IMG/VR virus record: IMGVR_UViG_3300036399_000656
Span: 1-62,091 of that record
Reading direction: 5' to 3' (one strand)
DNA: 62,091 nucleotides
Source: a virus
Numbering within the stretch: the stretch's first letter is position 1; each line of letters starts with the position of its first letter. This document shows positions 480 through 11,539 of the stretch, piece after piece. Under the pieces are notes generated by a model. It was not told the DNA's origin. It worked only from the letters and a program-made list of their open reading frames with translations, and made no database searches. The translations under genes and the position numbers were made by a program.

Positions 480-689
480 TTAGTATTTACGTCCTCCATA
501 TGATAACCTTGTCTTCCTGAATGGCGCAAACATGGCGCATTCGGCTTGGTATGTGGCTGTATCGACAACCTCGTAGCCCTTACGCACCATGGATGCAATG
601 AAGTTAGCCTCATGCTGTGCGTCATTGATGTTTACCACCATATCGAAGGAGTACTGCGATGGGCGGCGAAAAAAGAATCGTTTTTTCAT
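480..689 (-). CDS. Hypothetical basic protein, 69 aa
   Basis: The N-terminus carries six basic residues among the first nine (MKKRFFFRR) and the C-terminus is also basic; the middle, residues 17-50, reads like a small alpha/beta domain. No family is recognised. The ATG at 689 lies 14 bases after the 3' end of the tRNA-like structure at 704-747, so a cut at that structure would leave a very short 5' leader on this message. It belongs to the minus-strand operon read from the promoter near 2255. Confidence 0.55.
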   Translation of the reverse strand: MKKRFFFRRPSQYSFDMVVNINDAQHEANFIASMVRKGYEVVDTATYQAECAMFAPFRKTRLSYGGRKY

Positions 690-703
690 GCTGTTGAATT
701 TAG

Positions 704-747
704 AAACAGGGCAGGGAATCGAACCCTGCCTTGCACCATGCCTGTTT
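704..747 (-). ncRNA. Minimal tRNA-like structure 1 (acceptor, mini D-arm, T-arm)
   Basis: Read on the minus strand, AAACAG (747-742) pairs with CTGTTT (709-704) as a 6-bp acceptor-like stem. Inside it are an 11-base linker that can form a 3-bp hairpin GCA-UGG-UGC, and a 7-bp stem GGCAGGG/CCCTGCC closing the canonical 7-base T-loop TTCGATT. There is no anticodon arm and no encoded CCA. The 5' acceptor strand begins inside the TAA stop of the 158-aa gene (746-748), and the 3' flank is CTAAATTC. A second element at 1240-1283 has the same linker and acceptor but a different, still fully paired T-stem. Family knowledge: acceptor plus T-arm is enough for RNase P recognition. Function here is inference. 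Confidence 0.75.
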
Positions 748-1222
748 AGATGATTGAGTAATGAGCATCATTTGCGATGGCCTGAGCCGCGAGACGTGCA
801 TACGTCGCACGTTGCGTCTCAGTGCCGGCAACCTGTGGTTCAGGAAGGTCAATCACCTTATCGAGGTCAATTGAGTACATTGCCCGTTGGCCGTTGTGAA
901 TACCGAATTCAGCGGCCTCTTCGATAGTCTCGAAGTGACGGCTAATGTCTAGTACTAGCTTGCCGCTTTCCCACCAACCACCGATGTAGTTGTCGTCCTG
1001 CTCTAGCAACAGGCCGTTGGTTGCAATGAAGTCACGAACGTGCTGTGCAATCATTTCAGCCTGCAATTCACGCTTGTAGCGGATGAATGAGGTCGGAAGG
1101 TCAGCGATGTACTCATGGCCGTGAATCGAGGCAAATGCGCCTGTAGTTGGTATGCCATGGCTGAGGTGGTGAGTAGCCCCGTTGCCCGCAACGAGGGACT
1201 CGACAAAAGTGTTGAGGTTCAT
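746..1222 (-). CDS. Hypothetical early protein, 158 aa
   Basis: This is a soluble protein with no recognised domain. Residues 55-120 alternate charged and aromatic residues like a small alpha/beta fold, and there is no signal peptide or membrane segment. It sits between two tRNA-like structures: one ends 17 bases before its ATG, and the other starts within its stop codon. The start is the ATG at 1222, the first in frame after the upstream element. The gene is part of the early minus-strand operon, whose other members are also of unknown function. Such clusters in phages often hold host-takeover genes, but nothing in this sequence proves that. Confidence 0.65.
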   Translation of the reverse strand: MNLNTFVESLVAGNGATHHLSHGIPTTGAFASIHGHEYIADLPTSFIRYKRELQAEMIAQHVRDFIATNGLLLEQDDNYIGGWWESGKLVLDISRHFETIEEAAEFGIHNGQRAMYSIDLDKVIDLPEPQVAGTETQRATYARLAAQAIANDAHYSII

Positions 1223-1239
1223 ATGATATTGAAATTTAG

Positions 1240-1283
1240 AAACAGGAGCGGGAGTCGAACCCGCTCTTGCACCATGCCTGTTT
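1240..1283 (-). ncRNA. Minimal tRNA-like structure 2
   Basis: The architecture is the same as the element at 704-747: AAACAG/CTGTTT acceptor-like stem, the identical 11-base linker GCATGGTGCAA, and a 7-bp T-stem closing TTCGACT. The T-stem sequence is GAGCGGG/CCCGCTC instead of GGCAGGG/CCCTGCC, so several pairs differ between the copies while pairing stays perfect. This is direct covariation evidence for an RNA structure. The 5' strand starts inside the TAA stop (1282-1284) of the 161-aa gene, and the 3' flank is CTAAATTTC. No anticodon arm and no encoded CCA are present. Confidence 0.78.
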
Positions 1284-1767
1284 AGAAGATTGTCGTGTAA
1301 ATGCGGCCGTATGTGCGGCTTTGCTCTGCTAGGTAATCCCTTGCTGTATCGTTGCGCTTGAAGCGAATTGAGCGGCGGTTGTAATGCAGGATATTGTCCT
1401 CATCAATGGCAACCTCAACCCAAGGTGTGTTTGTCATGGATGCGCTGTACGATACACGATGGATGACCCGAACGCCTGTGCTGTTGCTGAATACTGAGAA
1501 GTACTCGTCGTAGCCGTTTGGACTCTCGTTCCTGTCTCGCTTGTACCACTTGACGTTGCCGTCAGTCAGTGTGAGCAAGCTATCAATTCGCTTGTCCCAT
1601 TCACGCGGGTTGTAATCGCGTCCCTGCTCTCTGATTTCATCAGTCGTGAGCGGTATCAGTTGAGCAATTGGCGCATAGTCGTGTATGTGAGCGTCGATTG
1701 TCTCTTGTGATAGGTTCATTTGCTTGAAGATTTCTACTTCGAATGCTGTGCCTTTTGTCATGTTCAT
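1282..1767 (-). CDS. Hypothetical early protein, 161 aa
   Basis: No family is recognised. The N-terminal 50 residues look helical, followed by an aromatic- and Asn/Arg-rich segment (residues 70-110) and a basic C-terminal stretch around residues 130-150. There is no membrane segment. It begins 24 bases after the 3' end of the tRNA-like structure at 1792-1868 and ends inside the 5' strand of the one at 1240-1283, so it is bracketed by two elements. Two in-frame ATGs (1767 and 1761) lie close together; the first is used here. It is most likely expressed early from the promoter near 2255. Confidence 0.65.
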   Translation of the reverse strand: MNMTKGTAFEVEIFKQMNLSQETIDAHIHDYAPIAQLIPLTTDEIREQGRDYNPREWDKRIDSLLTLTDGNVKWYKRDRNESPNGYDEYFSVFSNSTGVRVIHRVSYSASMTNTPWVEVAIDEDNILHYNRRSIRFKRNDTARDYLAEQSRTYGRIYTTIF

Positions 1768-1791
1768 GATGTTGAGTTTTTAAGTGTTTAG

Positions 1792-1868
1792 AACAACGCG
1801 GGGACTCGAACCCCGTGCGATACTAGCAACCTCAGTTATCTAGTATTGCCGCGCCTTGCGTCGTTGCT
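1792..1868 (-). ncRNA. tRNA-like structure 3 (degenerate cloverleaf)
   Basis: On the minus strand AGCAACG (1868-1862) pairs with CGTTGTT (1798-1792) as a 7-bp acceptor stem with one G-U pair. A 5-bp T-stem CGGGG/CCCCG closes the canonical loop TTCGAGT. A 3-bp mini D-arm (CGC-AAG-GCG) is possible. In place of the anticodon arm there is a 7-bp stem ATACTAG/CTAGTAT (1846-1840 with 1826-1820) with a 13-base loop, which is not an anticodon loop. The 5' half overlaps the last codons and stop of the 49-aa gene. The 3' flank CTAAACAC resembles those of elements 1 and 2. Confidence 0.7.
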
Positions 1869-1981
1869 ATAGTTGTCATTGCGGCACGTTTGCCTTTGCG
1901 AGCAGTCACGTTGTTAATGTTAACTGCTCCCCACATCACTGCGGGATTTATATTGCGCTGTTGCGCTTTTTTACAGGCCAT
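1832..1981 (-). CDS. Small basic protein, 49 aa
   Basis: An ATG at 1981 opens 49 codons ending with TGA at 1834-1832. The product is Ala-, Asn- and Lys-rich with a basic patch around residues 28-33 (ARKGKR) and no recognised domain. It lies in the leader of the early operon, about 260 bases after the predicted transcription start, and its 3' end runs through the 5' acceptor strand of tRNA-like structure 3. The other two upstream elements also touch the stop codon of the gene before them, so this gene fits the same gene-element-gene pattern. That supports it being real. Confidence 0.5.
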   Translation of the reverse strand: MACKKAQQRNINPAVMWGAVNINNVTARKGKRAAMTTIATTQGAAILDN

Positions 1982-6862: not shown

Positions 6863-6957
6863 AGCCAGGACAGGACTCGAACCTGTATGGGTGAAAATTT
6901 ATACGTCGTTTCTACACCCTTACTACGCTTAGCGTCTACCAATTCCGCCACCTGACT
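6863..6957 (-). ncRNA. tRNA-Leu-derived tRNA-like structure 4
   Basis: On the minus strand AGTCAGG pairs with CCTGGCT (7 bp, one G-U). A D-arm with the bacterial tRNA-Leu pattern GGCGGAATTGGTAGACGC, including the conserved GG, and a T-arm ACAGG-TTCGAGT-CCTGT complete a normal elbow. The 45 bases between D- and T-arm do not give a 5-bp/7-base anticodon arm. They fold instead as a hairpin GGGTG/CACCC with a long loop. No CCA is encoded. It starts 8 bases after the stop of the 85-aa gene and ends 9 bases before the ATG of the 97-aa gene. It could be a decayed tRNA-Leu, but placement and the sister element at 7241-7364 favour a functional processing element. Confidence 0.72.
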
Positions 6958-7240: not shown

Positions 7241-7364
7241 AGTCAGGACAGGATTCGAACCTGCATATACTTCAGATACTATCTGCTGGATTGTATTAAT
7301 ATGGCAAAGTATATTCGTATCCAGTTACATACCATATTAGCGTCTACCATTCCGCCACCTGACT
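7241..7364 (-). ncRNA. tRNA-Leu-derived tRNA-like structure 5 with pseudoknot-prone insert
   Basis: AGTCAGG/CCTGACT form a perfect 7-bp acceptor. The D-arm (GGCGGAATGGTAGACGC) and T-arm (GCAGG-TTCGAAT-CCTGT) match element 4 closely. Between them lie 75 bases with an 8-bp stem TAATATGG/CCATATTA, a hairpin CAGAT-AGT-ATCTG, and two further complementary pairs (CTGGAT with ATCCAG; ATATACTT with AAGTATAT) that cross the first stem, so a pseudoknotted fold is likely. There is no anticodon arm and no CCA. It follows a stop-codon hairpin at 7368-7393 and precedes the 85-aa gene by 17 bases. Confidence 0.7.
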
Positions 7365-10880: not shown

Positions 10881-11133
10881 CTTCTATTTTTTTTAGTTCA
10901 TTAAAATGTCCACTGATCCAAAGGTACATATCATTTCCAGTTAGCTCGTACAATCTTACGTTGATTAAACGCATTAGCTTCTGTTCTCGGTTGTATTTGC
11001 TCATTGGCTTATATGTTCCAGCCTTTGGATATTCCATGTCGTCAGTGAGAAGCTTATGCCTCAGATTCCGAAGGTGTTGTAACTCGGTCAATGTCGACGG
11101 TGTAGGCGGCAAGTATATCGGGGTTCCGTTCAT
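10861..11133 (-). CDS. Hypothetical protein, 90 aa
   Basis: A proline-rich N-terminus (residues 4-14) precedes a helical, basic middle and an acidic tail. Not recognised. It overlaps the 3' end of the DnaA-like gene by 80 bases in another frame and the next gene by 20 bases. Its position between a DnaA-like protein and a YegP-like protein suggests a replication-region accessory gene. Confidence 0.55.
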   Translation of the reverse strand: MNGTPIYLPPTPSTLTELQHLRNLRHKLLTDDMEYPKAGTYKPMSKYNREQKLMRLINVRLYELTGNDMYLWISGHFNELKKIEDGQNRD

Positions 11134-11539
11134 CGAAAAAATCTAATAAAAGTTCTTGTTTAGTTTGATCTAAGTCAGCAATGAAGTGACGTATTTTTTT
11201 GCGGCGCACTGCGTTGTATGCGTAGTCTCCTTTAACTGTTTTCAGTGCGTGACATACAGTTGAGTGGTCTTTGTTTACCGTTCTTGCAACTTCCGCAAGG
11301 CTCTTAGTTGAGCAAACCTTTACGGCGGTCATGTATACCTGGCGGGCTAAAACTACATCGGCAAAACGCTTCTGGCTTTTAATGTCAGAAGCACGAACCT
11401 CAAAGTGCTTGCTTACCTTTTTCATTATTTCGTTTTCTTGAGGATCTTCTATTTTATGAAGGTACTCATAAACTTTTGTGAATTCAGCCCGACGAGGTGA
11501 CGGGACCATGTTTACTAGGTCTTTGAATGTGTATCTCAT
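11054..11539 (-). CDS. DnaA domain IV-like DNA-binding protein, 161 aa
   Basis: Residues 40-105 match the C-terminal DNA-binding domain of DnaA: a Phe-Glu-Val-x-x-Ser-Asp-Ile start, a helix with VVLARQVYM, a helix-turn-helix (LAEVARTVNKDHSTV) and the DnaA signature DHSTV at residues 91-95 followed by H97. The AAA+ ATPase part of DnaA is absent. In host DnaA this domain reads 9-bp DnaA boxes. The protein may bind phage origin sequences or compete with host DnaA. It sits just downstream of the SSB-like gene in the replication region. Confidence 0.8.
   Translation of the reverse strand: MRYTFKDLVNMVPSPRRAEFTKVYEYLHKIEDPQENEIMKKVSKHFEVRASDIKSQKRFADVVLARQVYMTAVKVCSTKSLAEVARTVNKDHSTVCHALKTVKGDYAYNAVRRKKIRHFIADLDQTKQELLLDFFDERNPDILAAYTVDIDRVTTPSESEA

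Follow-up and report, generated by a model that had tools for sequence, protein, structure and literature searches.

Anticodon-less tRNA-like elements between the genes of a phage operon as possible cutting marks of its mRNA

The use of tRNA folds as punctuation marks in polycistronic transcripts is textbook knowledge for mitochondria, where the cut can leave incomplete stop codons. In bacteria, RNase P often uses the CCA end of its substrate. The tRNA build is also present in mascRNA and menRNA (RF01684), which are excised from the vertebrate long non-coding RNAs MALAT1 and MEN-beta by RNase P and RNase Z, receive an added CCA and occur in one copy per transcript. As described in the available part of the source (PMC11693755), these RNAs combine a tRNA acceptor and T-arm with a reduced D-arm containing two G, a longer stem with a compact loop, and few single-stranded linkers. 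Both RNase P and RNase Z are reported to read the elbow, that is, the GG together with the T-loop (excerpts of PMC4810234 and PMC11693755), and hairpins consisting of acceptor, T-stem and T-loop alone are cut by RNase P (excerpt of PMC11143913). The same excerpt names RNase P substrates outside tRNA, which are the C4 RNA of phages P1/P7, the his operon mRNA and the pre-tRNA dimers of phage T4, and it describes UAA in the place of CCA in the T4 pre-tRNA. A U at most 2 nt from the discriminator stimulates the RNase Z of Bacillus subtilis about 200-fold, according to PMC10100781.

The DNA considered here, called the window, is a virus record of 62,091 bases, whose terminase and portal match phage families. 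The closest named relatives by these two proteins are mostly phages of Flavobacterium, Cellulophaga, Tenacibaculum and Maribacter (23–27% identity in the rows listed), with one Caudoviricetes record from a spring also among them. Since most of these relatives infect the genera named, a Bacteroidota host is likely for the window phage. The window also encodes, at 11054–11539 on the minus strand, a phage protein with a DnaA C-terminal DNA-binding domain (PF08299, E 2.5e-18).

The large element and its overlap with a short gene

A sequence-only reading of the window proposed a tRNA-like element at 1792–1868. The element is real, and its fold lies on the minus strand (1868..1792). The 7-bp acceptor (AGCAACG/CGTTGTT), the 5-bp T-stem and the T-loop TTCGAGT (CGGGG-TTCGAGT-CCCCG) had been described correctly. 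In the arm that replaces the anticodon arm, the 7-bp stem stands, but the supposedly open 13-base loop folds into four more base pairs and a tetraloop. A D-arm of 4 bp with the loop NGG, at 1860..1850, had passed unremarked. Along the minus strand, the element consists of the acceptor strand AGCAACG, one A, the D-arm, the central arm, one A, the T-arm, the acceptor strand CGTTGTT and the tail C-UAAA, as follows:

1869..1875, minus strand: 5′ flank CAACTAT, identical in 8/8 close relatives
1862..1868, minus strand: 5′ acceptor strand AGCAACG
1850..1860, minus strand: D-arm CGCA-AGG-CGCG, 4 bp with the last pair open in the window, loop AGG; covaries in L004, L017 and L037
1817..1849, minus strand: central arm in the place of the anticodon arm, 2+7+4 bp with a one-base bulge and the tetraloop TGAG
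1799..1815, minus strand: T-arm CGGGG TTCGAGT CCCCG
1791..1798, minus strand: 3′ acceptor strand CGTTGTT with the unpaired C (1791); RNase Z cut predicted after this C, before UAAA
1832..1981, minus strand: open reading frame of 49 aa, overlapping the large element by 37 nt, with its stop TGA in the tetraloop

The 3′ flank CTAAA is common to the large element and two smaller ones (1283..1240 and 747..704), as had been noticed, and the kinship of the three as tRNA-like RNA under selection is supported. Folds with a T-arm and an acceptor are found four times in the window and not once in 200 dinucleotide shuffles of it; these four are the three CTAAA elements and a tRNA-Leu-like fold at 6957..6863. 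In minimum-energy folding, 1868..1792 and 1283..1240 form the acceptor pairing, whereas 747..704 (within a 66-nt stretch) does not. The elements share with the tRNA family (RF00005) the acceptor, the T-arm with a UUCRANY loop and the GG in the D-loop. They lack its anticodon arm with a 7-base loop, for which the large element has a 13-bp arm with a tetraloop and the miniatures have no arm. Neither ARAGORN nor Rfam at curated thresholds reports any of the three; in other phages, too, these tools may therefore pass over elements of this kind. When the Rfam threshold is relaxed, the large element matches best to mascRNA-menRNA (RF01684; 23.5 bits, E 0.054) and not to tRNA. The build of this family (acceptor, reduced D-arm with two G, long stem with a compact loop, short linkers) is that of the large element, and the scores obtained, 23.5 and 18.6 bits, stay below the curated gathering threshold of 42.5 bits. 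A real tRNA with an intron or an odd anticodon is ruled out, as there is no anticodon loop in 8/8 close sequences and no ARAGORN or Rfam tRNA match.

Close copies of the large element are present in seven viral contigs. Six of them (L003, L004, L005, L016, L017 and L037) came from scans that did not use its sequence, and L041 was found by a pattern that fixed part of the acceptor. In the alignment of the eight sequences, 96.6% of cells are paired, and both sides change in 10 of 29 pairs (17 cells). Such a result was reached by none of 500 shuffles, and slid controls gave 0–1 such pairs. A misaligned compact form of L006 in one alignment, and the 12-bp forms (L003 2939, L017 5314, L044, L063) and a near-duplicate (L005) in another, were left out before the pairs of the large element and of the miniatures were counted. 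An example of this covariation is the D-arm, which reads CGTG-AGG-CACG in L017, TGCA-AGG-TGCA in L004 and CGCA-TGG-TGCG in L037; the central arm and the T-stem vary as well, with the pairing kept. The acceptor, whose conservation in related phages had been proposed as a check, is unchanged in 8/8 close sequences, and free drift of its sites was not seen. The distant L058 has the acceptor AGCAGCA/TGCTGCG, with two compensated pairs and the first pair unformed. More forms are picked up by model R2, including compact ones of 58–59 nt, in which the acceptor is unaltered and the arm is shorter. Sequence comparison thus shows that selection acts on the RNA: what is kept, in a position between genes, is the elbow and acceptor of a tRNA but no anticodon.

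The sequence-only reading also located the 5′ acceptor strand in the end of the 49-aa gene and proposed that the same bases encode the C-terminus of the protein and the RNA fold. The overlap exists and is not limited to the acceptor, as it runs through to the TGA in the tetraloop. As a conserved design, the proposal fails, because a homologue reads through the element only in the window and L041. In L016 (and L323, from the same record), the homologue stops at TAA just before the element. In a tblastn search against 20 chosen loci, the match spans 34 residues in each of L058 and L321, and 18 in each of L318 and L320. The N-terminal part of the protein has no homologue in L003, L004, L005, L017 and L037 in this search: what matches in L003, L004 and L037 is the sequence of the element itself, preceded in L037 by a few further residues, and L005, L017 and others give no match. 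Because the acceptor is conserved even in these relatives without a homologue, its constancy is not owed to the protein. A single base of the overlap separates the window from L041; the difference is synonymous (CTA/CTG), and the base that pairs with it has changed too. Judged from such comparisons, it is the RNA and not the protein that holds the sequence, and the overlap is incidental; it looks like a gene of 34–35 aa that lost its stop and now reads on to the TGA of the loop. Dual coding as the purpose of the large element is therefore rejected, as the gene overlap is not conserved.

Miniature elements between successive genes

The large element and the two miniatures lie within a leftward gene series on the minus strand, which is probably co-transcribed, given its strand and spacing. 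As in tRNA punctuation, a tRNA fold is placed between successive genes of a presumably common transcript:

1282..1767, minus strand: 161-aa gene after the large element, ATG 24 nt downstream of it; stop UAA ends 2 nt inside element 2
1239..1283, minus strand: miniature element 2, acceptor AAACAGG/CCTGTTT, micro-D-arm CA-TGG-TG, T-arm AGCGGG/CCCGCT, then C
746..1222, minus strand: 158-aa gene after element 2, ATG 17 nt downstream; stop UAA overlaps element 1 by 2 nt
703..747, minus strand: miniature element 1, acceptor as in element 2, T-arm GCAGGG/CCCTGC, then C
480..689, minus strand: 69-aa gene after element 1, ATG 14 nt downstream of it

Upstream of the operon leader, at 2256–2249 on the minus strand, the window carries TATCTTTG, which is present in L003 too and which we take to fit the Bacteroidota -7 promoter motif TAnnTTTG.

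Miniatures occur between genes in this phage group and in some unrelated contigs. They form a family of about 42–50 nt, with a 7-bp acceptor, a micro-D-arm (CA-TGG-TG or CT-TGG-AG), a short linker or small hairpin and a T-arm of 5–6 bp followed by C, without an anticodon arm. In an alignment of 17 distinct rows, 98.0% of cells are paired, and both sides change in 13 of 15 pairs (66 cells), a result equalled by none of 500 shuffles; slid controls gave 5–7 pairs and 5–13 cells. The constancy of the TGG, the GCA and the T-loop core is by construction, because they were part of the search patterns. The stems, the final C and the next U were absent from the patterns that found the viral loci, although the model behind the later hits does contain the C. 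In miniatures of the TTGGAGCA type (L003 2981–3075; L005, L017, L041, L042, L323), a conserved, structured-looking stretch (CTCTGCTCACAGCAGGCTCGTAATGCAACGAG... or CTCCTGCATCGCAGGGCTCG...) stands before the next gene.

The position of the miniatures relative to the genes was determined for 45 distinct sequences, many of which come from related phages and are not independent. The stop of the upstream reading frame ends precisely 2 nt into the acceptor in 19 of them, and at another place between -11 and +6 in 16; it is farther upstream in 3, and in 7 no reading frame of 40 aa ends there. The next ATG, usually about 20 nt away, is found 6–53 nt downstream in 35/45 and 68–96 nt downstream in 6/45, and is not found in 4/45. 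The acceptor is followed by C in 44/45 and then by U in 42/45, the exceptions to C-U all belonging to one array of an unrelated 124-kb contig, so that elsewhere the rule holds in 41/41. Where the stop is TAG, the acceptor becomes AGACAGG/CCTGTCT, with the pair kept. One phage (L021, L324) has five elements in a single gene series, each of different sequence; no element is present in one gap of this series, nor in the window gap 460/480. The array of the 124-kb contig (G014; L325 1387–1943) contains at least four miniatures with low-complexity spacers of about 100 nt, outside gene gaps and without the C-U rule, and it may be a trans-acting version.

The spread of the elements was followed with the models R1 and R2 in 24 terminase relatives, picked mainly for length from the 80 listed of 103. 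A miniature (E ≤ 0.001) is present in 10/24, the large element (E ≤ 0.01) in 9/24 and either of them in 12/24. Several related contigs of 58–67 kb carry no element by these models; the system is apparently optional, or diverged beyond the models. About half of the 36 viral stretches that matched the first pattern fold as miniatures by eye, and the rest look like coding or tRNA matches. In 11 named phage records, model R1 gave no full-length match but a weak one in MW202828 (14.5 bits, E 0.084), the remaining matches being pieces of T-arms. A BLAST search of the elements against the phage collection returned no record with a place covering 80% of an element. Bacterial genome contigs contain no match to the strict pattern; the looser one gave at least 113, and among the 113 matches listed none folds as a miniature. 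In the T4-like Acinetobacter phage ZZ1 (L213, about 1490–1540), an unannotated T-arm-like hairpin with a 5-bp outer stem, a partial model match, lies just before a gene start.

Two further elements of the window are built on a tRNA-Leu core:

6863..6957, minus strand: tRNA-Leu-cored element between genes, with a non-standard anticodon region; tRNA-Leu taa by ARAGORN
7241..7364, minus strand: second tRNA-Leu-cored element, 124 nt, with a long hairpin in the place of the anticodon arm

Both keep the core (AGTCAGGTGGCGGAATTGGTAGACGC, with one T fewer in the second) and the T-arm, stand shortly before an ATG, and have anticodon regions unlike each other. Such elements of the window, L005 and L012 range from 73 to 124 nt. 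When 20 related contigs were searched with RF00005, 9 of them yielded matches, 13 in all. Among the seven distinct full sequences from these loci, six have the tRNA-Leu core and an atypical anticodon region; the remaining one is an 80-nt fold of another core in L333, adjoining a tRNA-Leu-cored one. On 11 of these loci, ARAGORN disagrees with itself, calling Glu ttc, Cys aca, Leu taa or none. The 124-nt element could form a pseudoknot, since its hairpin loop reads CTGGAT and a stretch farther downstream ATCCAG, an arrangement that is kept in L333.

Punctuation of the operon mRNA and alternative readings

With a probability somewhat above even, the element is an anticodon-less tRNA mimic that acts in cis as a cutting mark in polycistronic phage mRNA. 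The host tRNA-maturation enzymes would bind its elbow and acceptor. The constant C-U fits RNase Z best, and this enzyme would be the likeliest cutter, acting after the invariant C and before the U. After such a cut, the message of the next gene would begin with a short leader, A/U-rich and about 15–35 nt long, and the upstream message would keep a tRNA-like structure that protects its 3′ end. RNase P may cut the 5′ side too. Efficient 5′ cutting is doubtful, because a cut of RNase P at U|AA splits the stop codon and gives a non-stop message; it might be slow, occasional, blocked while the ribosome terminates, or possible only after translation. A stop split in this way resembles the incomplete stop codons of mitochondrial transcripts. 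At the head of the operon, the same part would fall to the large element, which separates the first long gene from the leader or from a short gene in front of it. The RNase Z is assumed to be that of the host, because an RNase Z-like protein (PF12706) was found in 0/7 contigs. A 339-aa metallophosphoesterase belongs to a different family.

The two tRNA-Leu-cored elements of the window speak for punctuation, as they likewise keep the core but not the anticodon. Against it counts that no CCA is encoded in the elements. The array of the 124-kb contig fits a trans-acting RNA equally well, and the overlap of stop and acceptor could be mere compactness. The element is not essential, because only 12/24 of the related contigs searched carry one by either model. 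A wider proposal is put forward more tentatively, its chances being somewhat short of even: the phage lineage would possess a dedicated punctuation, in which the tRNA-shaped mark of each cassette is fused to the previous stop, host tRNA-maturation enzymes split the mRNA, and the genes are exchangeable as self-contained cassettes.

An unlikely alternative is that the elements are excised as stable RNAs and act in trans as tRNA decoys, which occupy RNase P, RNase Z, the CCA-adding enzyme, TruB, EF-Tu or anti-phage tRNA nucleases, the gaps being simply where they fit. Many copies of one fold with differing sequence, and the array outside gene gaps in the 124-kb contig, agree with such a role, as does the mammalian analogue mascRNA, described as a stable product in the accessible part of PMC11693755. 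However, decoys do not need the tight register with the stop, the next ATG and the C-U that the gene-gap copies keep, and a decoy of anticodon nucleases would need an anticodon.

The stop at or inside the acceptor, which speaks against 5′ cutting and for an element that stays on the upstream mRNA, would also suit 3′ end caps only, where a host enzyme trims the transcript, the tRNA-like end protects the upstream mRNA, in the manner of the tRNA-like structures of plant viruses, and downstream genes are not targeted. This is improbable, since the large element heads the operon and has no 49-aa homologue upstream of it in L003, L005 and L037, and the distance to the next ATG is short and constant.

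The gaps also take part in gene exchange. Around element 2, the window is 90–100% identical to L003 upstream and at chance level downstream. With G010 (L323), identity is at chance level upstream and mostly 93–100% downstream, with 77% in one stretch. Element 2 (1283–1240) is thus the exact breakpoint of a gene replacement among the window, L003 and G010; for element 1, the pattern is repeated on the upstream side. Such one-sided identity indicates that the elements mark the borders of exchangeable genes. The known sequences to compare are the attC sites of integrons and the boundary sequences of lambdoid phages. That the elements are primarily DNA-level cassette joints for gene swapping, with the RNA secondary, is nevertheless very unlikely: their stems vary with the pairing kept, and they have tRNA T-loops and a C-U tail, none of which DNA homology needs. 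The tyrosine recombinase family PF00589 matches in 0/7 contigs searched, so neither an integrase target nor an integron-like cassette with a recombinase nearby is supported; a host integrase is possible. Common homologous recombination would do for the exchange. Under the punctuation reading, the gaps would double as joints for gene exchange between related phages.

Intrinsic terminators or attenuators, in which the GC-rich T-arm and a T-containing stretch stop or pause the polymerase, would explain that a consensus scan flags all three T-arms (4 found vs 2.3 expected by shuffle). This reading is rejected and scarcely plausible, as the tail is the 3′ acceptor strand and varies with its partner (for example CCGGGAT, TGTGTCT, GTAGGAG), the U-run is not kept, and same-strand genes resume 14–24 nt later. 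Decayed, functionless tRNA genes, which the Leu-type elements with their odd anticodon regions resemble, are the least credible source, contradicted by covariation far above the controls.

Comparison with known systems

The tRNA-like structures of plant RNA viruses occur once per genome, at its 3′ end, and are often pseudoknotted. The phage elements share with them the viral mimicry of the tRNA elbow for the use of host enzymes, as outlined in the available part of PMC4810234. With the T4 pre-tRNA, as described in the excerpt of PMC11143913, they share the UAA, which here follows the C.

The literature searched, in which subscription journals are sparsely covered, contains no report of miniature tRNAs without an anticodon that recur at one gene junction after another, nor of tRNA mimics lacking the anticodon and made for the purpose of cutting an operon, whether of a phage or of a bacterium. 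Among the titles and abstract beginnings listed for tRNA punctuation and bacteriophage, no phage operon appears. The elements would be portable RNA cutting tags and markers of exchangeable gene cassettes, and the 44-nt forms suggest that acceptor, two D-loop G and T-arm may be all of a tRNA that suffices in nature.

Mitochondrial tRNA punctuation is alike in placing tRNA folds between genes, where, as we read it, they mark the cut sites. The tRNAs of mitochondria are genuine and serve in decoding, whereas the phage elements have no anticodon. The likeness to mascRNA and menRNA is one of build and not of kinship: the phage elements occur in several different copies between protein genes, most of them without the central arm and below the Rfam threshold. 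While not an Rfam member by score, the large element appears from this analysis to be nearest to mascRNA/menRNA and to mitochondrial tRNA punctuation, in build and in probable use.
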